Of a stretch of DNA of 40,263 bases, positions 5,209 through 36,130 are shown in pieces (within the stretch, counting starts at the first letter, position 1; each line of letters opens with the position of its first letter). The translations under genes were made by a program, and so were the position numbers. Origin of the DNA: a virus; the IMG/VR virus record IMGVR_UViG_3300005663_000109, positions 1 through 40,263 of that record; one strand, 5' to 3'. The notes under the pieces are model-generated. The model made no database searches. It was not told the DNA's origin and saw only the letters and a list, made by a program, of their open reading frames with translations.

Positions 5209-6675
5209 ATGCTCCTCACCGACCAGACAGAAGTTCGTATGGCTCTCGACCGCTATCGGCGAGTCAGGGCCAAAGTCGCACGGCGCAATCCCAACGAGTG
5301 CGTAGAGTTTGTACTCAAGGACGAGACAACGCAGAAGCCTGTGAAGCAGGCGATGCATCACGAGAGGATCCAGCGCTCGTTCACCGAGGAAGATCGAGTC
5401 ATTGTCTGGTCGCATGTCGGCGCCGGCAAGACTCAGCAGGCGATTGGCAGACTCCTCTACGAGATCGGGAACGACCCACTTCAGCGTTGGATTGTCGCGT
5501 CACGAGGCATGACGCAGTCCACGAAGATTGTTCGGCAGGTCAGGCAATACATCGAACAGTCGATCGAGCTGCGCGAGGTGTTCCCTCACTTGAGGCCGAG
5601 CAGAGGCGACCCCTGGACCGACACGCAGATCACAGTAGACCGACCGGGGCGACCAAAAGACCCGACGCTTCGTGCGATTGGCACCGACACAGCGACTACG
5701 TTGGGGACGCGAGCCAATGGAGCACTGCTGGATGACGTGCTGAGCTGGGACAACACGGCCACACCGCGACAGCGAGAGAAGCTGTGGGAGTGGTACAACG
5801 CGAACATCGTGTCGAGGTTGGAGCCCGGAGCGAAGGTTTGGTGCATTGGCACCGCGTTCCATCCAGAAGATCTGATGCACCGGATGGCGAAGCTGAAGTC
5901 GTTCAGCTACTACAAGTTCCCCGTCATCGATCCCGCGACGGGCAATCCCATGTGGCCGGAGAAGTGGGGGCACGCTAGGATCGAGGAGCGACGTAACGAG
6001 ACTACTCCGCACGAGTTCGCTCGCACGATGCTGTGCACTCCGCTCGATGACGCGCGAGCCAGATTCAAGCGGGCGTGGATCGATCAGTGCATGGCGAGGG
6101 GTGACGGGAAGAAGAGCGCCTTCGCACTCAAGTCGGTTCCGCTAGGCTACAGAGTCTACACTGGAGTGGATCTGGGGCACCGTCAGAAGAAGAACAGCGA
6201 CGAGACTGTGTTGTTCACGATCATCGTGCACCCGAATGAGGACCGCGAGATTCTCTGCATTGAGTCCGGCCGATGGACTGGCGGTGACATCGTCGACAAG
6301 ATCATCGATACTTACAATCGGTTCCTCGGGATCATGGTCGTGGAGAACAACGCGGCTCAGCAGTTCATACTGGATTTCACCAAGAAGAAGAGTGCTGTAC
6401 CCGTGGTCCCGTTCACCACGGGTCGGAACAAGCTGCACCCTGAGTTCGGTATTGAGGGACTCGCAGCTGAGATGGCGAACAGCAAGTGGATCATCCCGTC
6501 AACAGGGGGTATCCCTGCGAACCATCAGATCGCGTCTTTCATTGAAGAGATGATGTACTACGACCCGAGGTCGCATACAGGGGATCGACTGATGGCTGCC
6601 TGGTTCGCTAAGGAAGCGTCACGTAAGAAGCCGAAGCGATCCGGTCGCGGACGGATTGATCTGCTGTCACGCTAA
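5209..6675 (+). CDS. terL: Terminase large subunit
   Basis: This is the DNA-packaging motor, which pumps DNA through the portal and cuts it. The 488-residue protein has a Walker A motif SHVGAGKT at 68-75, a Walker B GALLDD at 171-176 and a coupling motif GTAFHPED at 214-221. A C-terminal RNase H-like nuclease domain follows, with candidate metal ligands D321 in TGVDLG, E379 in VVEN and D459. All parts are present and in order, at the usual length. ATG 5209 lacks a strong ribosome binding site; ATG 5239, preceded by AGAAG, is an alternative. No recognisable small terminase subunit is adjacent. Confidence 0.92.
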   Translation: MLLTDQTEVRMALDRYRRVRAKVARRNPNECVEFVLKDETTQKPVKQAMHHERIQRSFTEEDRVIVWSHVGAGKTQQAIGRLLYEIGNDPLQRWIVASRGMTQSTKIVRQVRQYIEQSIELREVFPHLRPSRGDPWTDTQITVDRPGRPKDPTLRAIGTDTATTLGTRANGALLDDVLSWDNTATPRQREKLWEWYNANIVSRLEPGAKVWCIGTAFHPEDLMHRMAKLKSFSYYKFPVIDPATGNPMWPEKWGHARIEERRNETTPHEFARTMLCTPLDDARARFKRAWIDQCMARGDGKKSAFALKSVPLGYRVYTGVDLGHRQKKNSDETVLFTIIVHPNEDREILCIESGRWTGGDIVDKIIDTYNRFLGIMVVENNAAQQFILDFTKKKSAVPVVPFTTGRNKLHPEFGIEGLAAEMANSKWIIPSTGGIPANHQIASFIEEMMYYDPRSHTGDRLMAAWFAKEASRKKPKRSGRGRIDLLSR

Positions 6676-6687
6676 CTCGTGAGCATC

Positions 6688-6702
6688 CGCACAAGGCATA
6701 GG
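6688..6702 (+). repeat. 15-base repeat, copy 2
   Basis: This is an exact second copy of CGCACAAGGCATAGG, also at 1795-1809. It fills the short gap between the terminase and the GTG start at 6705, so its AAGG may act as the ribosome binding region for that gene. It continues as TAGGTT, weakly like a -10 box, but a promoter there would initiate downstream of the start codon. Confidence 0.55.
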
Positions 6703-6704
6703 TT

Positions 6705-6911
6705 GTGGCTAGCTACAACGAGTTGCAGTGTGCTCTCGAACATGAGCACGTCTACACGCGTCTTGAGATGGGACTATTCCATTTTGAGGCTACTGAGGAA
6801 GAGCGAGATGCTCTTGTCGTAGCAACGTGTCTACTTGCGTGGGAAGATCGAAATAACATTTTGTTCTTTGTAGTAGATCGAGCGAAAACTAGACTAGGTA
6901 TCGAAGTATGA
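6705..6911 (+). CDS. Paralog cluster member 1 (68 aa)
   Basis: GTG 6705 starts a 68-residue acidic helical protein. Residues 33-40 (ERDALVVA) carry the motif that recurs in the next six genes: charged residue, Asp-Ala, hydrophobic trio, Ala. A hydrophobic C-terminal helix follows (NNILFFVVDRAK). The family is unknown to me. The gene is first in a tightly coupled seven-gene set between the terminase and a terminator hairpin, and its TGA overlaps the next ATG. Confidence 0.6.
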   Translation: MASYNELQCALEHEHVYTRLEMGLFHFEATEEERDALVVATCLLAWEDRNNILFFVVDRAKTRLGIEV

Positions 6912-7116
6912 GCAACTGGATGGAGAGGGCTCAGTTCAACTTCGTGGTTGACGATGCCGGCGTCAAGGGATCTTCTGGACTGAAGAAGAGAAGTTGCTCT
7001 ATGTGGAAAACGCCGATCAAGAGAACAAAGACGCTCTGGTGGTTGCGACTGGACTTGAAGACTGGAGTGCTGCTGATGCTGTTATATCCGTAGTGATCGA
7101 TCGGGTGTTGGAATGA
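6908..7116 (+). CDS. Paralog cluster member 2, frameshifted (about 69 aa if repaired)
   Basis: ATG 6908 overlaps the preceding stop (ATGA). Read straight through, the frame ends at 7093 in an unrelated basic tail. Adding one G to the GGG at 6967-6969 moves the reading to a frame that contains NKDALVVATGLEDW at residues 40-53, a close match to member 1, and ends at TGA 7114-7116. That repaired stop overlaps the next ATG (7113) as ATGA, exactly like its neighbours. The repaired length also matches member 1. So the C-terminal coding frame is the second one, and the gene is either mutated, mis-sequenced or recoded. Confidence 0.6.
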
Positions 7117-7427
7117 GTGAACTCTCAAACAAGCTTACTGCTCGTGCCAGGATCTTGCATCGCACTCGTTTCGCACTAAAGGCGTTCGGGTACAACAAGA
7201 TGATCACGTGGATCGAACAGAACGTGGATCGCGAGAACCAAGATGCTATTCTGGTTTTGTACCAGATGGCTATAGATCGATCTGACTACGCAGGTCCGTA
7301 CTACGAGTTCGATCGCGCGGGACCAGAAGCTCGTGTTCTACAGGAACTCATGACACCGATCCTCAAGCGTGCAACTGAGCAAAGCTTCAAGACTCAAAGA
7401 GAACGCTACATCGAGTCTAAGAAATGA
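7113..7427 (+). CDS. Paralog cluster member 3 (104 aa)
   Basis: The 104-residue protein is the closest relative of the following gene: both have an RT-x-x-A-L-x-x-F-G-Y segment (residues 18-27 here) followed by a Trp-Ile element and a motif NQDAILVL (42-49) corresponding to the cluster motif. The C-terminus is a basic helix. Function unknown. ATG 7113 couples to the repaired stop of member 2, and its own TGA overlaps ATG 7424. Confidence 0.6.
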   Translation: MSELSNKLTARARILHRTRFALKAFGYNKMITWIEQNVDRENQDAILVLYQMAIDRSDYAGPYYEFDRAGPEARVLQELMTPILKRATEQSFKTQRERYIESKK

Positions 7428-7714
7428 CTCCTGAAGAACAGAAACAGACGATCATAAATCGCACGACCGTTGCTCTTGTGACCTTCGGGTACCACTACAC
7501 AGCTAGTTGGATCAAGGAGTACCTGACGATAGAGGAGTGTGAAGCGGCGATCTCACTTTACCAGATAACCCACCTTGCTGAGCTTGCACGTTTCGGTACG
7601 TCGAGCGAGCAACTTGCAGTCGACGACATCATGGGTGGTGTCTACGAGCGCAATCCCGAGTTTAGAACACAGTATTGGGCGGGTCTTGCGAATGGGCGAG
7701 GCCAGCACCGGTGA
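7424..7714 (+). CDS. Paralog cluster member 4 (96 aa)
   Basis: This tandem paralog of the preceding gene shares RTTVALVTFGYHYTASWI at residues 13-30, aligned with the same region of member 3, and a degenerate form of the cluster motif (CEAAISLY, 39-46) followed by Gln-Ile. It diverges in its last third, ending in a Gly-Arg-Gly-Gln tail. No function can be assigned. Its TGA overlaps the next start as GTGA. Confidence 0.6.
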   Translation: MTPEEQKQTIINRTTVALVTFGYHYTASWIKEYLTIEECEAAISLYQITHLAELARFGTSSEQLAVDDIMGGVYERNPEFRTQYWAGLANGRGQHR

Positions 7715-7998
7715 CTCAGAGGATCAAAGACGCGTTCGCTGGTGCGATCAAGACCGGATACGCGCCCGACATGACCTCGAAATCACGGAGAGCTGCGCGA
7801 GCGATGCTTTGGAGTTGGTTCGAGAATAGTTGGAATCGTCGCGATCTGGACGTGAGCCTTACGCATTGTCTGGAGTACATTGAGTATGCCTCTGAAGAGG
7901 AGAAGGATGCGTTGATCGTTGCTCGTGCTCTAAAAGACAACAAGGCTGCGGCAGACATCAGCGACAGGATCTTGGAGCGTTACCGTGATGAGTCTTGA
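7711..7998 (+). CDS. Paralog cluster member 5 (95 aa)
   Basis: GTG 7711 is preferred over an in-frame start at 7675 because it forms the GTGA junction typical of this cluster. The 95-residue product has a basic helical N-terminal part (MTQRIKDAFAGAIK) and, at residues 64-71, a strong copy of the shared motif (EKDALIVA) followed by an Ala/Asp-rich helix similar to member 2. Function unknown. The next gene overlaps it by 11 bases. Confidence 0.6.
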   Translation: MTQRIKDAFAGAIKTGYAPDMTSKSRRAARAMLWSWFENSWNRRDLDVSLTHCLEYIEYASEEEKDALIVARALKDNKAAADISDRILERYRDES

Positions 7999-8218
7999 AG
8001 CCATCCGCGATAACCTAGACGAGATCATTGGTGCGACGGTCGCGATAAGGTGGCTGGTGTTTGTTTCGGAAAAAAACTATGTCAGAGCGAACAGAATCGC
8101 ATCGCAAGCTTCTTCAAGAGAACGGCAAGCTATTGTCGCAGCGCATAAGCTCGGAGACGCTTTGGCAGTGATCGACATTGTGAGTGTTATTCAGGCTAGA
8201 TTGAATAGCCATGGGTGA
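7988..8218 (+). CDS. Paralog cluster member 6 (76 aa)
   Basis: ATG 7988 is chosen over GTG 7985. The 76-residue protein starts MSLEAIRDNLDEIIGATVA and carries a variant of the cluster motif at residues 45-52 (ERQAIVAA), followed by a Leu/Val/Ile-rich helix (LGDALAVIDIVSVIQ) like the last segment of members 1 and 2. No catalytic residues are evident. It overlaps the next gene by 8 bases. Confidence 0.6.
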   Translation: MSLEAIRDNLDEIIGATVAIRWLVFVSEKNYVRANRIASQASSRERQAIVAAHKLGDALAVIDIVSVIQARLNSHG

Positions 8219-8813
8219 CCTTGACCGACCGAATCGCGTGATCCGTAATGCAGAGCACGGGTACTACAAGCGGAACTGGAAGGTGTCGCCCTCGGCCGGT
8301 ACGCATCGACATCCGCTCTATGGCACGATCCAGAAGATTCAGAGTCTGAACGTGAATGGACGGTGGGAGTACCGAGCGATCAGCAAGTCGCTGCGGGATG
8401 TGGGGATCCGCGAGGGTTGGCTGTTGAAGAAGTGGAGTAAGCTCGAAACAGCGAAGTACGGTCTGTGGTGTATCTGGAAGCAGGCGAGCAAGCTGACCGA
8501 TCGGTACGTGTTGATTACTGGTGGTCGAGTAACCACTCTTGAGACGATGGGGCCGGACGTGGTGGTCAGGATCCCTGTTATCGATAAGTACTACGCCGAC
8601 GAGATCTGGGACTATTTACTCGACGCGATCAGTAGCATCGCTCATGTCAAGATGGTGGGACAACGTGTGTTGGAAGACCCCGAGTTGCAAGAGGCTGTGA
8701 TCGTCGCAGGGCGACTTAGGATGCGTGAGGAGATCGAGGCTTTGGCCGGATCGGTTCTCAGCGAGCTAGAGGTGCGCGACGCGTTTGTTGCATCCGGCTC
8801 TTGGTTAGGATAG
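8211..8813 (+). CDS. Paralog cluster member 7, long form (200 aa)
   Basis: The 200-residue protein has a unique Trp- and Lys-rich N-terminal region (residues 1-120), including GWLLKKWSKLETAKYGLW, and a C-terminal part (about 125-195) that resembles the small members: an acidic helix, the motif variant LQEAVIVA at 159-166, and a closing helix. It may be a fusion of an extra domain to the cluster module. ATG 8211 overlaps the previous stop by 8 bases. It ends with TAG 8811-8813, followed by the terminator hairpin. Confidence 0.6.
   Translation: MGDLDRPNRVIRNAEHGYYKRNWKVSPSAGTHRHPLYGTIQKIQSLNVNGRWEYRAISKSLRDVGIREGWLLKKWSKLETAKYGLWCIWKQASKLTDRYVLITGGRVTTLETMGPDVVVRIPVIDKYYADEIWDYLLDAISSIAHVKMVGQRVLEDPELQEAVIVAGRLRMREEIEALAGSVLSELEVRDAFVASGSWLG
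8784..8811 (+). promoter_or_regulatory. Possible sigma70-like promoter
   Basis: TAGGAT at 8806-8811 is a fair -10 hexamer, with TTTGTT (8784-8789) 16 bases upstream as a weak -35. It overlaps the end of the preceding gene. A terminator-like hairpin lies between it and the next gene, so it could be chance. Confidence 0.3.
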
Positions 8814-8864
8814 AGTTCACAATGCGCTAGATTCCTCTACCACCCTCAATCTTCGTCATGCTCT

Positions 8865-8901
8865 GGACAGGCGGGTTGCTTCGGCGACTCGCCTGTTCTC
8901 T
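8865..8901 (+). terminator. Hairpin with UUCG tetraloop, likely terminator
   Basis: A long stem (about 15 pairs, a few of them G-U) runs from 8865 to 8898, closed by a C(TTCG)G tetraloop at 8879-8884, one of the most stable RNA loops. It is followed by TCTCTATT, a modest T-rich tract. It lies between the end of the paralog cluster and the gene at 8939, the right place to end that operon. Confidence 0.7.
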
Positions 8902-8938
8902 ATTGGTGGTGTACCCTTCGCGAGGATAGGAGAAGTCT

Positions 8939-9211
8939 ATGAGCATTCACCAAGCGGAAGTCGATATCTTTGGCGTTGCGAGCTATCCAGCTACGGCTCA
9001 GGTCATTGTCCCCTTCCAACCAAGAGAGATCTTGATCGTCAACATGGACACGTCTGATGACGTATTTGTTAGTCTCGATGGGACGACCGATCACGCGCAT
9101 CTTCTCGGAGGCGATTCCGTGAAGTTTACCCAAACGGTGAAAAAGATCTTTTTGAAGCGAGGTGCTGTTGGTACAACTCCGACAAACGTCCAAGTAATCT
9201 CGGAGGGTTGA
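8939..9211 (+). CDS. Small virion-like protein, 90 aa
   Basis: The 90-residue, beta-rich protein begins MSIHQAEVDIFGVASYPAT and contains a PREILIVNMDTSDDVFVSL segment. This pattern of alternating strands with a VFVSLDG turn resembles the small head-decoration or fibre-associated proteins of phages, and a protein of similar style is encoded at 18672. It directly precedes the tail-collar gene, so a tail or fibre role is also possible. ATG 8939 has an AGGAGAAG site upstream. Function is inferred only. Confidence 0.5.
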   Translation: MSIHQAEVDIFGVASYPATAQVIVPFQPREILIVNMDTSDDVFVSLDGTTDHAHLLGGDSVKFTQTVKKIFLKRGAVGTTPTNVQVISEG

Positions 9212-9214
9212 TCG

Positions 9215-9739
9215 ATGGTTGACTTCAACAGAGACGCTTCTGTAGGTGCAGATGATCGCATCGACATAGTGACACCGATCGGTGTCATGTTGATGTGGAT
9301 GACAGACGTAGCTCCAGTAGGTTGGAAGATCTGTGATGGCACAGCCATCTCTAGGACTACCTTCGCAGATCTTTTTACTCTTCTAGACACGACGTACGGG
9401 ATCGGCGATGGGTCTACCACGTTCAACTTGCCTGATCTACGTGGTCGGTTTGCTCGTGGTCGAGATGCAGGAGCGGCTGTAGATCCCGATGCAGGTGCTC
9501 GCACAGACAGAGGTGACGGCACAACTGGGGATGTAGTTGGCACGAAGCAGGCAGAAGACTTCAAGGCTCATACGCATGTGATCCAACAAGACCTGAATGG
9601 ATCGCCAGGGGTTCTCCCTGACAGCATCGCGGCCAATCAGGGCACTTCAGCTTTTGTCGCCAACAAGGCACTCGCAACAGGTGGAAACGAAACACGTCCA
9701 ACCAACATCAACGTCAATTATATCATCCGCGCTAGCTGA
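9215..9739 (+). CDS. Phage tail-collar domain protein
   Basis: Residues about 20-80 form a clear Phage Tail Collar domain (PF07484): PIGVMLMWMTDVAPVGW, then CDGTAISR, the TTYGIGDG turn, and FNLPDLRGRFARG. After a Gly- and Asp-rich stretch, a segment with AHTHVIQQ leads to the typical C-terminal end with ETRPTNINVNYIIR. Such proteins are short tail fibres or fibre tips that contact the receptor. ATG 9215 has a GGAGGG site and follows the small virion-like gene by 3 bases. It is far from the baseplate and fibre genes at 33-40 kb. Confidence 0.85.
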   Translation: MVDFNRDASVGADDRIDIVTPIGVMLMWMTDVAPVGWKICDGTAISRTTFADLFTLLDTTYGIGDGSTTFNLPDLRGRFARGRDAGAAVDPDAGARTDRGDGTTGDVVGTKQAEDFKAHTHVIQQDLNGSPGVLPDSIAANQGTSAFVANKALATGGNETRPTNINVNYIIRAS

Positions 9740-10383
9740 TGATCACAGACGAACAGGTCGGTAAGCTGGTCGTCGACCAAGCTCGATGTAAGCAGCGTAG
9801 TGAACAGATCGAGCAAGACCTGACGGTACTAGGTACCGAGGTGAAGCGGATGTCGTTGTCTTACCAGAGCTTGGAAAAGTCGATCCTAGAGATTGCCAAC
9901 GACGACAAGGAAGTGTTGGCAGCTCTTGGCGTGGATATAGGTGATCTGCTAGAGAGTGTCGATGGTAAGGAGAACGATGACGACAAGCCGGGATTGAAGA
10001 AGCGCACAAAGAGCTTGGAAACGCAGCAAGGCGAAGACAACAAGACGCGGTCGTTGGTGAAGATTCTAGCAGTGATCGCCACTGTACTACTTCTTCCTGC
10101 TGGTGGTTGGTTGGGAAACAATCTGTGGGATCACTACAAGGATCAAGGAGTACGTCTTGATGAGATCGGAGGTAAGGCGACTGCGACCGATGCTGCGCTC
10201 GAACGACATGAAGAACAGGTGGGGCATGAGGGATTGCGTGTGCAAGTAGGAGCTACCGAGCGGAGTATCTCTTCTATCGACACGACCCTTGAAGCGATTC
10301 AGACTGCGCAGAAGCAGGCTCGAAGAGAGAACCATACAGCGCATGAGCGCTTGGAATATCAGATCAGGAGAAGCAACAGATGA
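9739..10383 (+). CDS. Coiled-coil protein with one membrane segment
   Basis: The 214-residue protein begins with a helical domain (1-100) containing heptad-like Leu/Ile/Val spacing, has one hydrophobic span at residues 106-126 (LVKILAVIATVLLLPAGGWL), and ends in a second helical region with many Gln and Arg. Topology and context, with a two-span protein next and a lipoprotein soon after, make an inner-membrane lysis or spanin-like role possible, but no family was recognised. ATG 9739 couples to the tail-collar gene (TGATG). Confidence 0.55.
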   Translation: MITDEQVGKLVVDQARCKQRSEQIEQDLTVLGTEVKRMSLSYQSLEKSILEIANDDKEVLAALGVDIGDLLESVDGKENDDDKPGLKKRTKSLETQQGEDNKTRSLVKILAVIATVLLLPAGGWLGNNLWDHYKDQGVRLDEIGGKATATDAALERHEEQVGHEGLRVQVGATERSISSIDTTLEAIQTAQKQARRENHTAHERLEYQIRRSNR

Positions 10384-10601
10384 CCAAGAAGCAGGCTAAG
10401 AAGAAGCTCGATCTACCGCAGGCAATCGTATTCGCTGCGGTTGTGCTCTCTATCGCTGTGGTCCTCGGCCTCGTGTTGACCTGGGGGCCGGAAGATTCGC
10501 GCACAGAAGTGACACGGTGGGTCGCGCTTGCGATCACCTCCGGTGGTGCTCTCATCGCACTCGCGCGCGGGAAGATGTTCGGCGATGGAGAAGCAAAGTG
10601 A
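10380..10601 (+). CDS. Holin-like small membrane protein
   Basis: The 73-residue protein has a Lys-rich N-terminus followed by two hydrophobic spans (about 15-35 and 47-63) and a charged C-terminus. This is the size and layout of a class II-type holin, which permeabilises the inner membrane at the end of infection. The assignment rests on topology and on neighbouring membrane and lipoprotein genes. There is no endolysin next to it. ATG 10380 overlaps the previous stop. Confidence 0.5.
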   Translation: MTKKQAKKKLDLPQAIVFAAVVLSIAVVLGLVLTWGPEDSRTEVTRWVALAITSGGALIALARGKMFGDGEAK

Positions 10602-10903
10602 ACATTGAGTGGACCATGAAGATTCGGCCTGTCACCGAAGAGGAGAAGGCTGAGAATATGCCTGAGACCGGTAGGTTGACTATCGACTCTACGGGCAAAG
10701 AGGTCGAGACATTCCACCCGGAAGACGAGCCAGCCTACCGGATCGATTGGAGGCATCAGATTCTTTCTGGCACTGATGAGGGGAAAGAACTCGGTGGAGC
10801 AGTTATCTGTACTTCTGCCGAAGGTGATCTGTTCTCTTCGATCGGGCAAGCTGCAAATCACGCTCACATGTCGATCGAAGAGTACGGAAAGAAGAACCTA
10901 TGA
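10598..10903 (+). CDS. Hypothetical protein, 101 aa
   Basis: GTG 10598 gives a GTGA overlap with the upstream stop and has GGAGAAG upstream; ATG 10616 is an alternative. The acidic, soluble-looking product contains a RIDWRHQILSGTDEGKELGG element and ends with MSIEEYGKKNL. It is not a recognised family. Its stop overlaps the lipoprotein gene as ATGA. Confidence 0.55.
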   Translation: MNIEWTMKIRPVTEEEKAENMPETGRLTIDSTGKEVETFHPEDEPAYRIDWRHQILSGTDEGKELGGAVICTSAEGDLFSSIGQAANHAHMSIEEYGKKNL

Positions 10904-11382
10904 CTGACACGATCTACTATCCTCTACTCATGCTCGCTCTTCTTGCTGTCTACCTGGCGCTTCCAGGCTGTGGAGGAGCAGTCCAAACACACTCCACTGC
11001 GATCCGTGTGAGTGCCGGTACCATCGCTGTCGGTGGCGCTATGATCAGCGAAGCTCGATCACAAGCGCTCGATCGCATTACCGAAGAGACCGAAGGTCAG
11101 CCACGTGAAGAGCGTGCAGAAGCTCTACGCGAAGAGTCTGCTCGATGGGATCCGATCGGGGCCACTATCAACACTGGTAAGGAAATCCTTCAGGCGTGGC
11201 ATGACACTGTGGAAGCAATCGAGGCTGGAGCTGAGAACCTCTGGGTACGTGTTCCGTTGCTAGTCGGGCGGCTCGTTCGATTATGGAACCGCACGGTAGA
11301 GCTGGCACGAACGTTGGGGGTGGATCTTCCAGTGATTCCATCTCAGGTCACGGCGATCGTAGGATCGTTCGGAGGTGGGTGA
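10900..11382 (+). CDS. Predicted lipoprotein (possible outer-membrane spanin)
   Basis: The 160-residue protein starts with a hydrophobic signal (MLALLAVYLALPGC) ending in a lipobox-like L21-P22-G23-C24. Signal peptidase II would cut before Cys24 and lipidate it. The rest has a Glu/Arg-rich helix (residues 55-90) and a second helical region. Phage lipoproteins near holins are often o-spanins, which would imply a Gram-negative host, but it is long for one. ATG 10900 couples to the gene before it. Confidence 0.5.
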   Translation: MTDTIYYPLLMLALLAVYLALPGCGGAVQTHSTAIRVSAGTIAVGGAMISEARSQALDRITEETEGQPREERAEALREESARWDPIGATINTGKEILQAWHDTVEAIEAGAENLWVRVPLLVGRLVRLWNRTVELARTLGVDLPVIPSQVTAIVGSFGGG

Positions 11383-11597
11383 TGGAACAGGCGATTCTCA
11401 GTATCATCGGGGCTGGGCTAAAAGCTCTTGCGCCGAGTGTAGCGAAGGCGATTACGGGAGGGCAGACTCCAGAGGACGCTCTCAAGTCGGCACAAGATAC
11501 GATCGATGCCATCAAGGAGCCGGGTGGCAAGGATGGTGATTGGGCGAAAGATCTAGACGGTAGGATCGAGAACCTGCCTGAAGACACAAAGGGATGA
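11382..11597 (+). CDS. Hypothetical protein, 71 aa
   Basis: ATG 11382 forms TGATG with the preceding gene and has GGAGGTGGG upstream. The N-terminal 30 residues (MEQAILSIIGAGLKALAP and on) form an amphipathic to hydrophobic helix, and the rest is acidic with a GGKDGDW turn. It could be membrane-associated. It ends the operon: the 16-base inverted repeat begins a few bases after its stop. Confidence 0.55.
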   Translation: MEQAILSIIGAGLKALAPSVAKAITGGQTPEDALKSAQDTIDAIKEPGGKDGDWAKDLDGRIENLPEDTKG

Positions 11598-11602
11598 GGT
11601 CT

Positions 11603-11669
11603 TTCGAGTAGAGGTCCAGTCGGCTGCACGGATGGCTTCTCTCGTGCTATGGTTGGACCTCTACTCGAA
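11603..11669 (+). promoter_or_regulatory. Perfect 16-base inverted repeat around a promoter-like sequence
   Basis: TTCGAGTAGAGGTCCA (11603-11618) is repeated exactly in reverse complement at 11654-11669, with a 35-base loop. In the loop, TGCACG (11625-11630) and TATGGT (11648-11653) form a promoter-like pair with a 17-base spacer. The right arm ends against the AGGAG ribosome binding site of the gene at 11679. Read-through RNA would fold the hairpin, while RNA started in the loop would not. Without a T tract it is not a standard terminator. Confidence 0.65.
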
Positions 11670-11678
11670 GGAGAAGCC

Positions 11679-12071
11679 ATGGATGAGAAGAAGGAAGACG
11701 CTACGGGCCCCCGGAAGGATCGCGATGCGACCCGTGTGCTACCGGAAGACAAGCCACCTGGAGTGAGTCTTGTAGATCCCACTGTGGGTCGCATGGTGCA
11801 CTACTACCCGACCAACGCTGATCTGCTTCAGTTCACAAATGACGCACAGCGTGCAGGAAGAATGATCTACGGTATCGTGCTTGGAGTGACTCCTCTCGCT
11901 GCGATCATCGTTGCTACCTTTCCTGGCGATCGAGTCAGCCTTCGGGTGATGCTCGATGCACCCACGGTCCCTGCTCACATCCTTCGGGTGATGCATTCCG
12001 AGAAGCCGTGTATCGGGCGTTGGTCGTGGCCTCCGCAGGTACAGCTGCGTAAGTCGACCGTAGCAGCCTAG
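11679..12071 (+). CDS. VHYY-type phage protein of unknown function, 130 aa
   Basis: ATG 11679 follows an AGGAG site; the upstream in-frame ATG 11649 lies in the promoter and hairpin region and is unlikely. Residues 34-43 read PTVGRMVHYY, a signature of a widespread phage hypothetical family, followed by a hydrophobic segment with IYGIVLGVTPLAAIIVATF and a C-terminal SWPPQ element. The hydrophobic segment may be a core strand rather than a membrane helix. It directly precedes the portal promoter. Confidence 0.6.
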   Translation: MDEKKEDATGPRKDRDATRVLPEDKPPGVSLVDPTVGRMVHYYPTNADLLQFTNDAQRAGRMIYGIVLGVTPLAAIIVATFPGDRVSLRVMLDAPTVPAHILRVMHSEKPCIGRWSWPPQVQLRKSTVAA

Positions 12072-12082
12072 TCGGCTATCCT
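12054..12082 (+). promoter_or_regulatory. Sigma70-like promoter before portal operon
   Basis: TCGACC (12054-12059) and TATCCT (12077-12082) are separated by exactly 17 bases, just at the end of the VHYY gene and 42 bases before the portal start. A short hairpin (CGCTTC...GAAGCG-like) follows in the leader. Confidence 0.55.
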
Positions 12083-12123
12083 CGCTTCATGGGTGAAGAA
12101 GCGACGCAAGAAGAGGTAGATCG

Positions 12124-13800
12124 ATGAGCAGCGGAACTCCAGTAAATCCCGCAGCGGGATCGAACTTTGTCTACAGCAACATGTCCTCGCAGGGCATCGA
12201 GCAAGGGACAGTACCTGCTCATGGACCAGCCTTTGCGCTCAGTCCACGTCAGATGGATCTGGGAGCGTACTGGAGCTACTACCGATGTCGGAACTACGAC
12301 ACGCGGACTGTGGATTGGAACGGTCAGCCTGTCACCTCCGGACTAGACCACGAAGTGATCGTCTCGCAGGCGTACACTCCTCCCGGTTTCTACGACGCAG
12401 GAGCCAACTATCCGATCAAGTTCCGTCGTCCGTACGCACCCTACTACCTCGCCAAGATCATCGTTGATCGTTTTAGCGGACTACTCTTCTCGACTTCACG
12501 CCAGCCTTCGCTGACCTACGCTGGCGACGAGCAGACCGAAGACTACATGCGCACGGTGGCTAAGGTAGGTCGGCTCTGGCCTGCGATGGCTCAGGCGCGT
12601 CGGTTCGGTGGTGCCATGGGATCGGCAGCGATCGGGTTCTCCATCGTGGCAGGTAAGCCTCGGTTTGAAACTCACGATCCTCGTTGGACACAGCCTACCT
12701 TCAAAGATCGACACGAGCTGATTCTACGGCAGATCGAGAAGCGATACGTCTATCCACACTACGTTCGCGATCCGAATGAAGGCGAGTGGATTGAAGTCTG
12801 GTTCTGGTACCGTCGTGTGATCAACGAACATATCGACGAGGTCTGGGAGCGGGTGCCTGTAGAGGACGGTGAAGAGCCTATTTGGGAGCACCACGAGTCC
12901 AGTAAGGTCGAACACGGGCTAGGAATCTGCCCTGTCGTGTGGATTCAGAACACACCAGAAGAGGACGACATCGACGGTGACCCTGACTGCTGGGGGATCT
13001 TCGACATTATCGAGGAGCACGATGCGCTCATATCGCAGGCTAGCCGTGGTGTGAAGGCGAACTGCGATCCAACTCTGTGGATCTCGTCTGATGAAGAAGT
13101 CGACGGTCCAATCCAAAAGGGTAGCGACAACGCACTGAAGTACGAGAAGGGATCGAACGCACGGTATCTTGAGATCACTGGAGCAGGACCAAGGGCTGCG
13201 ACTGAGATGGCTGGCGAGCTACGAGAACGTGCGTACGAGATTGCCGCTGTGGTACCAGACGATATTTCGGCTATCGAGAAGACGGCTACAGAGATCAGAG
13301 CGAGGATGGCTCGGATGACTGAGAAGGCCGACTCGCTACGTGAGCAGTACGGTGAGATGGGGATCAAGAAGCTGCTGGAGATTGCAGAGTTCGTGATCCG
13401 TCAAACTGTAGGCACGAGAAACGTAGAGCGGGAGTTTTCTGATGGGGACAACGTAGAGTCGATCCGCAAGACAATGCGTGTAACATCAACGCTGGAACTT
13501 CCTCCTCGATACGAAGAGTCTGACGAGGGCACCAAAATTCCGATCCCACGTGTGCTCGGACCCGGATCGTACTTGGAGTTGAAGTGGCCTCGGTACTTCG
13601 AGCCTACTCTCGAAGAGATCAGCAAGGCAGTCCTAGCCGCTGTCGCTGGGATCTCGGGTGGCGTGATGGACATGAAGATGGCGATCGCCTTCCTGAAACA
13701 GTACCTTCCGATCGAAGACGAAGAGGCTATCGTCAAGCGGCTAGAAAAAAAGATGGAAGAGACTGAACAAGACATGACGCAGTTCCAGATGTTCACGTAA
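12124..13800 (+). CDS. Portal protein
   Basis: This 558-residue protein forms the dodecameric ring at the capsid vertex through which DNA enters and leaves. It resembles SPP1 gp6-type portals: an N-terminal wing, a region with AKIIVDRFSGLLF, a central beta-rich clip with many Trp residues, then ISQASRGVKANCDPTLWIS and a long helical stem (residues about 360-450) rich in Ala, Arg and Glu, and an acidic C-terminal tail. Length is normal for the family. ATG 12124 has an AGAAGAGG site. It is followed with a one-base overlap (TAATG) by the HTH gene. Confidence 0.88.
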   Translation: MSSGTPVNPAAGSNFVYSNMSSQGIEQGTVPAHGPAFALSPRQMDLGAYWSYYRCRNYDTRTVDWNGQPVTSGLDHEVIVSQAYTPPGFYDAGANYPIKFRRPYAPYYLAKIIVDRFSGLLFSTSRQPSLTYAGDEQTEDYMRTVAKVGRLWPAMAQARRFGGAMGSAAIGFSIVAGKPRFETHDPRWTQPTFKDRHELILRQIEKRYVYPHYVRDPNEGEWIEVWFWYRRVINEHIDEVWERVPVEDGEEPIWEHHESSKVEHGLGICPVVWIQNTPEEDDIDGDPDCWGIFDIIEEHDALISQASRGVKANCDPTLWISSDEEVDGPIQKGSDNALKYEKGSNARYLEITGAGPRAATEMAGELRERAYEIAAVVPDDISAIEKTATEIRARMARMTEKADSLREQYGEMGIKKLLEIAEFVIRQTVGTRNVEREFSDGDNVESIRKTMRVTSTLELPPRYEESDEGTKIPIPRVLGPGSYLELKWPRYFEPTLEEISKAVLAAVAGISGGVMDMKMAIAFLKQYLPIEDEEAIVKRLEKKMEETEQDMTQFQMFT

Positions 13801-14258
13801 TGTCTACCTCGATCATCCACAGAGGGCGGGTTCTCTGGACAAACGAGCCGTGGCGAAGGCGGAAGCCTCTGTCGCCTGTCGTCGATGACAAGTACATACT
13901 CCCTGTGACGTACGACCCGCCGAAGCCACCTGCGATCGGAGGGACTTACTACGACGAGAATGAAGACTTGCGTTACCGGATTACAGGTCCGCTCGATCCG
14001 CTCCAAGGCTGGTGCATCATCGACACACTGGTGAAGCACTACAAGCTTCCCGCGAAGGTGATCCACAAGTGGGCTCGCATGGGTCTGATTGATCCTGCTA
14101 TCGAGCACGGGTCAGCTGTTCGTCGCTACTACGTGCGGAATCCACGTGAGGTGGAGAAGCGAGCCCGTGTGCTACGAGCAAAGATCCGCGTCAAGAGTAA
14201 AGACACACTGAACCTCCGCCGGCTGATGCGGAGCACTGGGATGCTGAGGTCGCTGTGA
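13800..14258 (+). CDS. Winged-helix/HTH candidate DNA-binding protein
   Basis: The 152-residue protein has a Pro-rich N-terminal region and, at residues about 74-122, a MerR- or excisionase-like pattern: DTLVKHYKLPAKVIHKWARM, then GLIDP, then a wing with RRYYVRNPREVEK. The C-terminus is very basic. Role unknown; it could be a regulator, or a small terminase-like DNA-binding subunit, since none was recognised near terL. The portal stop overlaps its ATG, and its own stop overlaps the HAD gene as GTGA. Confidence 0.6.
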   Translation: MSTSIIHRGRVLWTNEPWRRRKPLSPVVDDKYILPVTYDPPKPPAIGGTYYDENEDLRYRITGPLDPLQGWCIIDTLVKHYKLPAKVIHKWARMGLIDPAIEHGSAVRRYYVRNPREVEKRARVLRAKIRVKSKDTLNLRRLMRSTGMLRSL

Positions 14259-14692
14259 TCATTTGCGTTGACTTCGATGGAACGATCGTGTCCTCCGATC
14301 GAGAGTACACGGACGTCGAGACCCCTTTGGAGTTCCTTCATGGAGCAAAGGAGGGACTTCAGTCGTTGAAGGCTGCCGATCACGTGATCGTTATCTACTC
14401 AGCGAGAGCGAACAGAGCCCTGCGGATAGACCCGAATTTAGATCCACTCGTGCGTGCCGGACTACGTCGACTTGACCACGAGTGGTGGGAGAGTAACAAG
14501 GATCTGAACGAGGCTCGGTACCAACAGATGGTGGAGTTTTGCAAGACAGCGTTGGACGGGATCGTTGACGTGGTGGATGACGGACAGCAAGGGAAGCCTT
14601 GTGCGGGACTCTTCATCGATGACCGGGCAATGCGTTTCCGATTCGGTGACTGGTTGAGGATCTCACGGATGTACGGGGAAAAGCATGGGTGA
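14255..14692 (+). CDS. HAD-superfamily phosphatase
   Basis: GTG 14255 starts directly on the HAD motif I: CVDFDGTIV with the nucleophile D6 and acid D8. Motif II is a VIVIYSAR element (44-51), and motif IV is FIDDRA (120-125). The cap is small or absent at 145 residues, as in phage-encoded HAD proteins that may act on nucleotides or polynucleotide ends. Substrate cannot be told from the sequence. It lies in the interlude between portal and head morphogenesis genes and is coupled on both sides. Confidence 0.8.
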   Translation: MIICVDFDGTIVSSDREYTDVETPLEFLHGAKEGLQSLKAADHVIVIYSARANRALRIDPNLDPLVRAGLRRLDHEWWESNKDLNEARYQQMVEFCKTALDGIVDVVDDGQQGKPCAGLFIDDRAMRFRFGDWLRISRMYGEKHG

Positions 14693-15074
14693 AAATCTAC
14701 ATAGGAAGAAGCTCTTCGGTGGGTTGCAGACCGCTGAGGAGTACCACTCCGAGCATGCGTTCCCTCCGAACGCGAGATGTCAGGGCTGCAAGACACGTGG
14801 AGTGACCACACGGATCATCGTGTACTATCCTGTCGATGAAGTGAAGAAGCGCGATCCTGCGTTCGCTGCAATCTCCGAGGTATCGCCACAAAAGTTCCTC
14901 GCGTTGCTGATGCAGACCAAGAGCGGCCCCATGGTACGGATCTCTACGGTCTACGCGTGCAAGCAGTGCACACCTACGATCGAGAAGGCAGCCGCAAAGG
15001 GACCGAGCTGGGCTCTTGTCGACATCAATCGTGGACCTGGTCCGGATAAGGCAGTCGCTGGTCCAGGAAGCTGA
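14685..15074 (+). CDS. CxxC...CxxC zinc-binding candidate, 129 aa
   Basis: Two CxxC pairs (C32/C35 in RCQGCKTRG and C92/C95 in ACKQC) enclose a segment with IIVYYPVDE and suggest one zinc ribbon with a long insertion. The C-terminus is Gly- and Pro-rich. No family is recognised. ATG 14685 overlaps the HAD gene by 8 bases, and its stop joins the HNH gene as TGATG, so the three form one translational unit. Confidence 0.6.
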   Translation: MGENLHRKKLFGGLQTAEEYHSEHAFPPNARCQGCKTRGVTTRIIVYYPVDEVKKRDPAFAAISEVSPQKFLALLMQTKSGPMVRISTVYACKQCTPTIEKAAAKGPSWALVDINRGPGPDKAVAGPGS

Positions 15075-15460
15075 TGTCCGATCCGTTTGCAGACTGGGTT
15101 CGTGGGCAACCGAAAAAGCCAAAGAAGCTCTCACCCGATGAGCGCAAGGCTCTAGCTCGTCTGCGTCGTGAAGCTAAGAAGGCCGGAGCGACTTTACGTA
15201 ACTACGGTCGCGGAGGACTGCCGCCCTCTCTCGCGCTCGGTGTCATGCGACGCGACGGGTTCACGTGCAAGGTCCATGGTGATCATGGTGAAGGTGAGAA
15301 CGGCGGGCTCACCCTTCACCACAAAGGTGGCACTGGTCTAAGCGCGTGGCTTCGATCGAAGGGGACCAGTAACGACGTGAACAACTTGGTCACGATCTGC
15401 CATCGCGCACACGGGAACATCCACGAGCACACGGATAAGATCGAAGAGGTAGAAGCGTGA
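15074..15460 (+). CDS. HNH endonuclease
   Basis: The 128-residue protein has a basic helical N-terminus and an HNH core: RRDGFTC (59-65), LTLHHKGG (79-86) with the catalytic-type His pair, then NDVNNLVTICHRAHGNIHEH (100-119). This motif set is that of small phage HNH nucleases, some of which assist packaging with the large terminase while others are mobile. Position among head genes fits a packaging accessory role, but a homing role is possible. It is coupled on both sides. Confidence 0.82.
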   Translation: MSDPFADWVRGQPKKPKKLSPDERKALARLRREAKKAGATLRNYGRGGLPPSLALGVMRRDGFTCKVHGDHGEGENGGLTLHHKGGTGLSAWLRSKGTSNDVNNLVTICHRAHGNIHEHTDKIEEVEA

Positions 15461-34933: not shown

Positions 34934-36130
34934 ATGGATTTCCCTACATTCGATGAGATCTTTCGTGTGAGTCGAGATGAGATTCTCACGAAGAACAGCA
35001 ACCTCTCGCTCGATGCGGTCGAACGAGAAGGCACGGACGTAAACGCTTTGGTTGCAGGACAAGCTGCGATCGGTGACGAAGTGATTGGGCAGCTTGTTGA
35101 AACCGAAGCAAGCCTCTTTCTAGACTCTGCCGAAGGTGAGAAGCTTGATCGTCTAGTTTTCGATCGCTACCAGCTCCTTCGTAAACCAGCTTCTTCTGCG
35201 CTGGCTACGGTCGAGTTCACCACGGTCACTCCGGTTCCCTCGTCGTTCTCGATCCCAATCGGTACCAGGCTCTCCACGTCCGATGGCCGTCAGTTTCTCA
35301 CACTGGTAGCTAGTACCTTCCTGATCGGAACGACAGGGCCTGTTTCGGTTGCTGTGCGATCTGCGCTTGCTGGTCTCAATCAAACTGTAAAGAAAGATCA
35401 GATTACGAGCGTCGTAAGTTCGATTACAGGATCGCCTTCCGATCTAGCAGTAAACAATCCACTCGCGTCATCCGGTGCAGACAACGCCGAACAAGACGAA
35501 GCATTGCGAGATCGCGCCCGTCGGTTCTTCGTCACTGCTCGCCGTGGAACGATCTTTGCGATCGAAACACTGGCTCTGGCTGTTCCTGGTGTTCGTACTG
35601 CATTCGCATTCGAGGCGCTATCTCCCGATGGACGTCAAGCGATCTCAAATCAACTCCTCATCACTGACGCGTTTACTGAGACACTGATCGACGTGTCGCC
35701 TACGCCGGTAAGCTATCAGTTGCAAACTCAGCTTCTTGCACAGATAGTGTTCAACTCGCTTGTTGATACACGTGCGATGGGGATCTTCATTTCAGTAACG
35801 CTCGCTTCGGTAATCCTTCAAGGAGTCACGCTTGGTTTGCGTTTCCAAGCTGGAGTCAATGTAGATCTTGTGGCTTTCCGTGCACGTGTGGCGATCGTCA
35901 ACTATACGAACGCGTTGGCGAGTGGAGAGACATGGGAAGTCTCCAAAGCGCTCGACGCGTTGAGAATCGTTCCTGGTCTGGTTGTTACCGGTGGCGAGAT
36001 TCTCAGTCCAGCAGGCGATGTCGTACCACAAGCCTTAGAAGTGATCCGCACAACGACTGGACTTGTGGTCGCATCAACGATCCAACCTGACACCGCGCTT
36101 CAGGGCAACACAAACCCGGACGGTGTGTGA
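34934..36130 (+). CDS. Baseplate J-like protein 1
   Basis: The 398-residue protein matches the baseplate J family (PF04865): N-terminal helical part with DEILTKNSNLSLDAVEREG, LDRLVFDRYQLLRKPAS, then the characteristic strand region with PIGTRLSTSDGRQFLTLV, and ARRFFVTARRGTIFAIETLA and PGVRTAFAFEA further on. These proteins form the wedges around the hub. It is directly followed by a second, diverged copy. GAGGAG precedes ATG 34934, which follows a short non-overlapping gap. Confidence 0.85.
   Translation: MDFPTFDEIFRVSRDEILTKNSNLSLDAVEREGTDVNALVAGQAAIGDEVIGQLVETEASLFLDSAEGEKLDRLVFDRYQLLRKPASSALATVEFTTVTPVPSSFSIPIGTRLSTSDGRQFLTLVASTFLIGTTGPVSVAVRSALAGLNQTVKKDQITSVVSSITGSPSDLAVNNPLASSGADNAEQDEALRDRARRFFVTARRGTIFAIETLALAVPGVRTAFAFEALSPDGRQAISNQLLITDAFTETLIDVSPTPVSYQLQTQLLAQIVFNSLVDTRAMGIFISVTLASVILQGVTLGLRFQAGVNVDLVAFRARVAIVNYTNALASGETWEVSKALDALRIVPGLVVTGGEILSPAGDVVPQALEVIRTTTGLVVASTIQPDTALQGNTNPDGV

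Follow-up and report, generated by a model that had tools for sequence, protein, structure and literature searches.

An uncultured, contractile-tailed phage carries a translationally coupled set of seven small genes in the interval between its terminase and portal genes, and diverged paralogs make up much of this set. Four of the products share a C-terminal module that is predicted to fold as a compact bundle of three helices. The interval is a cargo slot in related phages, and the cassette is probably dispensable and may serve host takeover or counter-defense.

Seven overlapping genes lie between the terminase gene and a stable hairpin

The window analyzed here is the entire IMG/VR virus record IMGVR_UViG_3300005663_000109 (40,263 bases). 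Seven same-strand open reading frames (ORFs), which we refer to as g1 to g7, fill positions 6705-8813 between the terminase gene and a hairpin. The features are as follows.

5209..6675, + strand: terminase large subunit (phrog_38, E 6.7e-56), left border of the variable interval
6705..6911, + strand: g1, 68 aa, GTG start, assigned to family A; module HVYTRLEMGLFHFEATEEERDALVVA...
6908..7116, + strand: g2, 69 aa if joined over one -1 change, assigned to family A; module 6970-7113
7113..7427, + strand: g3, 104 aa, assigned to family B
7424..7714, + strand: g4, 96 aa, assigned to family B; g3 paralog
7711..7998, + strand: g5, 95 aa from GTG 7711, assigned to family A; predicted five-helix protein
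7988..8218, + strand: g6, 76 aa from ATG 7988 (GTG 7985 possible), divergent, assigned to family A
8211..8813, + strand: g7, 200 aa, co-operonic; family A membership unsupported
8865..8898, + strand: UUCG-loop hairpin with a 15-bp stem, closing the cassette (region z -3.1)
12124..13800, + strand: portal protein (phrog_145, E 4.9e-12), right border of the variable interval
34934-36130: baseplate wedge, found together with the portal

All seven genes proposed in the initial annotation are present, and all six junctions have a stop/start overlap: ATGA at 6908, 7113, and 7424, GTGA at 7711, 11 bp between g5 and g6, and 8 bp between g6 and g7. The set therefore looks translationally coupled, an arrangement that is common in phage operons. 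For g5, we took the start at GTG 7711, which forms the GTGA overlap; the ORF list begins at TTG 7675.

The cluster had also been described as ending in a UUCG terminator. A very stable hairpin with the loop cUUCGg is indeed present 3' of the cluster, but it lacks a good T run and is absent from the output of the terminator scan. It could still act as an intrinsic terminator despite the poor T run, or else as an mRNA stabilizer or processing signal.

A sibling contig, IMGVR_UViG_3300005253_000114 (46,375 bp), carries a cluster identical to that of the window, and over the 16.5 kb compared the sole differences are seven mismatches at 15315-15355. These mismatches fall within 41 bases inside the ORF at 15074-15460, and the patch is a local hypervariable spot, a recombination patch, or an assembly chimera. 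Elsewhere in the window, an ORF at 2026-2928 resembles the flavin-dependent thymidylate synthase ThyX by eye. Shortly after the portal gene, positions 14255-14692 hold a HAD-like phosphatase/nucleotidase ORF (MIICVDFDGTIV...), and a similar ORF was seen by eye shortly downstream of the portal in two relatives (L008 and L010). Host lookup via the terminase returned two metagenome-assembled genome (MAG) contigs only (Armatimonadetes and Gammaproteobacteria), and no reliable host was obtained from these terminase matches.

Four of the genes share a C-terminal module and two form a second pair

The initial annotation had treated the seven genes as one family sharing a short motif. Smith-Waterman comparison against shuffled sequences gave p values of 5e-7 for g1-g2, 2e-7 for g2-g5, 1e-4 for g1-g5, and 3e-7 for g3-g4 (31% identity). 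Among 56 control pairs with other proteins of the window, the best p value was 5e-4, which therefore served as the practical noise floor. In a phmmer search of 14,328 ORFs, drawn from both the window and ~80 relatives, g1, g2, g3, g4, and g5 matched only themselves and one another, with E values among g1, g2, and g5 of 1.7e-4 to 1e-3. A profile of g1, g2, and g5 recovered the more divergent g6 with an HMM p value of 6e-5, a score reached by 1 of 1,000 shuffles. On this sequence evidence, we assign g1, g2, g5, and g6 to a family A with a common C-terminal module of ~45 residues, and g3 and g4 to a family B, a second duplicate pair. The closeness proposed for members 1, 2, and 5, the paralogy of 3 and 4, and the weaker kinship of 6 thus all hold, and the small helical module has, as proposed, expanded locally, with four secure members.

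The two families are possibly linked. The best pair between them, g2-g3, had a p value of 5e-4, equaled by one unrelated control pair. Against the g1/g2/g5 profile, g3 scored p 0.003 (18 of 1,000 shuffles as good) and g4 p 0.12; over all HMM tests against family A, the ranges were 0.0015-0.003 for g3 and 0.03-0.12 for g4. Profile-profile alignment (hhalign) of g3/g4 with family A yielded E 0.067, and the g4 segment read as a copy of the motif, CEAAISLY, does not match it when taken alone.

The largest gene, g7, had been viewed as a fusion of the module with an extra N-terminal domain, a view that our comparisons did not uphold. Its p value against the g1/g2/g5 profile was 0.035 (96 of 1,000 shuffles as good), and HMM tests against family A overall gave p 0.019-0.045, with 57-140 of 1,000 shuffles as good. 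Against all six other proteins, the p value was 0.013; together with the family A tests, 33-140 of 1,000 shuffles did as well. The hhalign E value was 0.061, and 16-44 of 1,162 unrelated ORFs scored as well as g7 on the 13-residue motif, placing its match at chance level. Profile similarity is therefore present for members 1, 2, 5, and 6 and lacking for member 7, which is probably an unrelated operon partner.

The family A copies are old, and gene 2 carries a frame break

Within the 45-codon module, the same codon is used at 4 of 17 identical residues in g1-g2, 5 of 16 in g2-g5, and 3 of 12 in g1-g5. Across g1, g2, g5, and g6, codons agree at only 3-5 per 9-17 identical residues, and synonymous change is near-saturated. 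Differences at the first, second, and third codon positions number 22, 18, and 32 for g1-g2 and 24, 17, and 31 for g2-g5, a third-position excess. Codon disagreement and this excess together indicate that the family A copies are old and have been kept under purifying selection, and such selection on the protein in turn indicates that these frames are coding. The g3-g4 pair uses the same codon at 10 of 15 identical residues, suggesting a younger duplication.

g2 is not one open frame. Its ATG at 6908 is in frame 2 and its stop at 7114-7116 is in frame 1; the ORF listed mechanically, from TTG 6994, encodes just 40 aa. A stop codon at 6949-6951 lies before the conserved module and, like it, is in frame 1, and one -1 change is therefore needed between 6952 and ~6970, where the sequence reads CAAGGGATC. 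Despite the break, the module is intact and matches g1 and g5, and g2 overlaps each of its neighbors by 4 bp, the two overlaps being in different frames. Programmed -1 frameshifting was considered and rejected: the site CAAGGGA is not a canonical heptamer, and RNA structure downstream is no greater than in shuffles (z -0.12). We therefore prefer a one-base deletion, real or introduced by sequencing. The break is present in both the window and the sibling contig; it may come from sequencing error, as both contigs are perhaps from the same sampling. g2 is either broken or FRAMESHIFTED.

The shared module is predicted to be a three-helix bundle

We modeled g5 with AlphaFold2, using the other family A members as the alignment. 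The model has helices at residues 3-14, 23-41, 48-59, 62-73, and 77-94 and a mean pLDDT of 68. The C-terminal blocks, which form the three helices of the common module, reach a pLDDT of about 72-85, and the motif EEEKDALIVARAL forms the middle helix of this arrangement. The family A module is thus predicted to be a compact three-helix bundle attached to divergent N-terminal parts. A single-sequence model of g7 was unusable (pLDDT 37).

A Foldseek search of the g5 model against PDB and BFVD returned no match at E <= 0.001 (best E 1.9), and VIA-align produced a weak list that included bundles of the protein A B domain type, with Z 3.3 over 53 residues. Protein A B-domain and affibody bundles have the same general layout, three short helices that span about 53 residues, but this Z score is within the chance range for helical bundles and there is no sequence relation; the resemblance appears generic and is too low to be evidence of kinship. 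The negative fold searches do not establish a new fold. Three-helix bundles of the protein A/affibody type serve as binding scaffolds.

Database searches recover only a sibling contig

None of the curated profiles (Pfam, PHROGs, NCBIfam, and PADLOC) matched a protein of the cluster. Sub-threshold matches were taken as chance, namely Argonaute Mid (E 0.019) and phrog_4625 (E 0.007, to g1), together with Cas8a (E 0.013) and HamA (E 0.048). In 2.9 million viral contigs, the queries g7, g3, A1, A2, and A6 found the sibling contig only, and A1 found nothing in GTDB contigs from 84,980 species genomes. No significant match to g2, g3, g5, or g7 emerged from tblastn searches of 50,697 phage records, a PDB sequence search gave no useful match, and profiles of families A and B found no member among the terminase relatives examined. 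No homolog of known function was found for any cluster member in the databases searched. At the sensitivity of these tools, the sequences appear to have no relative beyond the near-identical sibling contig. The earlier statement that no described family fits agrees with the lack of matches in curated profiles, PDB, and BFVD.

The cassette occupies a variable cargo slot

A terminase profile brought in 80 relatives with terminases 42-57% identical. The portal homolog was located in 66 records, where its distance from the terminase ranges between about 0 and 5.5 kb; the interval (6676-12123 in the window) is therefore a variable slot. One relative (L004) has the terminase gene, ~40 nt, and then a homolog of the gene at 8939-9211, which in the window follows the cassette. 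This relative therefore displays a cassette-free site.

We matched 75 proteins from the intervals of relatives to profiles. They include Dam and N6_N4 DNA methylases, MqsA-antitoxin family proteins, HTH regulators, peptide deformylase, HU-like DNA-binding proteins, ADP-ribosylglycohydrolase, ThyX, and HNH endonucleases. Cell-wall hydrolases (amidase, GH25, M23, and SLT matches) and tail genes likewise occur there, and the slot is therefore not specific to counter-defense. It is a general cargo site, used in part plausibly for counter-defense and host manipulation and in part for lysis. Paralogy within the slot was limited to one pair (L029) among the intervals of about 40 relatives, so tandem expansion is no general habit of the slot.

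Possible roles of the cassette

Our tentative reading, which we hold with less than even confidence, is that this accessory ORFan cargo cassette encodes small helical binding proteins that interfere with the host. A polycistronic, coupled message would make the set together, and the conserved bundle would act as a protein-binding scaffold in each protein. Duplication followed by surface divergence could then have yielded several partners, with surfaces and N-termini giving specificity, and each protein would block or redirect a host protein, leading to defense evasion or host takeover. The coupling, the divergence of the paralogs, and the cargo slot are shown; the bundle is predicted; the partners and the benefit are inferred, at this same tentative level. 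The methyltransferases, MqsA-like proteins, ADP-ribosylglycohydrolase, regulators, and deformylases in the slot of relatives lend indirect support to an arms-race role. The purifying selection and old divergence of the paralogs argue against it. Because structural genes surround the cassette, it is likely to be expressed late, a timing that would fit early takeover no better than a part in the virion, in lysis, or in exclusion. A stricter form, in which an undescribed three-helix-bundle family of coupled, diverged paralogs neutralizes a different host target with each member, and g3/g4 and possibly g7 are remote members, seems unlikely.

It is similarly unlikely that the paralogs are subunits of one hetero-oligomer, for example an assembly accessory, with coupling fixing the stoichiometry. 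The overlaps that couple all seven genes, the common C-terminal module with differing N-termini, and the location among late structural genes would fit such a complex. However, the cluster is absent from every terminase relative examined and is not needed for this virion type; coupling is widespread among phage operons, and the charges of the proteins differ widely (pI 4.1 to 9.5).

That the genes are decaying or weakly selected ORFans, duplication debris with no present role, is distinctly improbable. The g2 break shared by both contigs, the GC content of the cluster (0.505, below the 0.54-0.58 of most flanks), and the lack of homologs fit decay, but six of the seven frames are intact with tight overlaps, the module part of g2 still is as well, and synonymous divergence with retained protein similarity points to past purifying selection.

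Internal head proteins ejected with the DNA offer a further comparison. In T4, a contractile-tailed phage, these proteins are small, non-essential, and poorly conserved, occur in variable sets, and include IPI, which blocks a type IV restriction enzyme (PMC9026906). Proteins like IPI, IPII, and IPIII, packaged and injected to protect incoming DNA, would be small, lineage-specific, and encoded next to packaging and portal genes, as the cassette proteins are. The T4 proteins, however, have a common N-terminal capsid-targeting sequence and are otherwise divergent, whereas the N-termini of the cassette proteins do not align and the common part is C-terminal. For the most part, g1-g6 are acidic or nearly neutral, not basic, and no similarity to the T4 proteins was seen; we consider this explanation very doubtful. 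Equally doubtful is a late role in exclusion or in the timing of lysis, through binding to proteins of the phage or the cell envelope. Lysis-type genes occur in the slot of relatives, and a lipoprotein-like and a transmembrane-like ORF were noted by eye downstream in this phage, but g1-g6 have no obvious membrane segment (maximum 19-residue hydropathy 1.57).

The reading as host-interfering cargo has two parallels. As the published account of T4 tifA outlines, a small phage gene can be driven by a host defense system to expand in copy number; the tifA copies are described there as recent, laboratory-selected segmental amplifications, whereas the cassette copies are old and highly diverged (PMC9391042). 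Phage and satellite hotspots in P2-like and P4-like elements are outlined as holding variable antiviral cargo at fixed genome places; here, the slot is the terminase-portal interval, and the cassette has no known defense gene (PMC9122126).

The ORFan family found here is new, yet it belongs to a familiar class, the small accessory genes that phages keep in variable slots; what is unusual is its expansion to four or more coupled copies. For now, the cluster is one case of lineage-specific small-gene expansion, which is common in phage accessory DNA. If the products bind host factors, they would form a compact group of small inhibitors or adaptors, so far undescribed and all based on a single fold, and further examples could be sought in the terminase-portal slot of this phage group.
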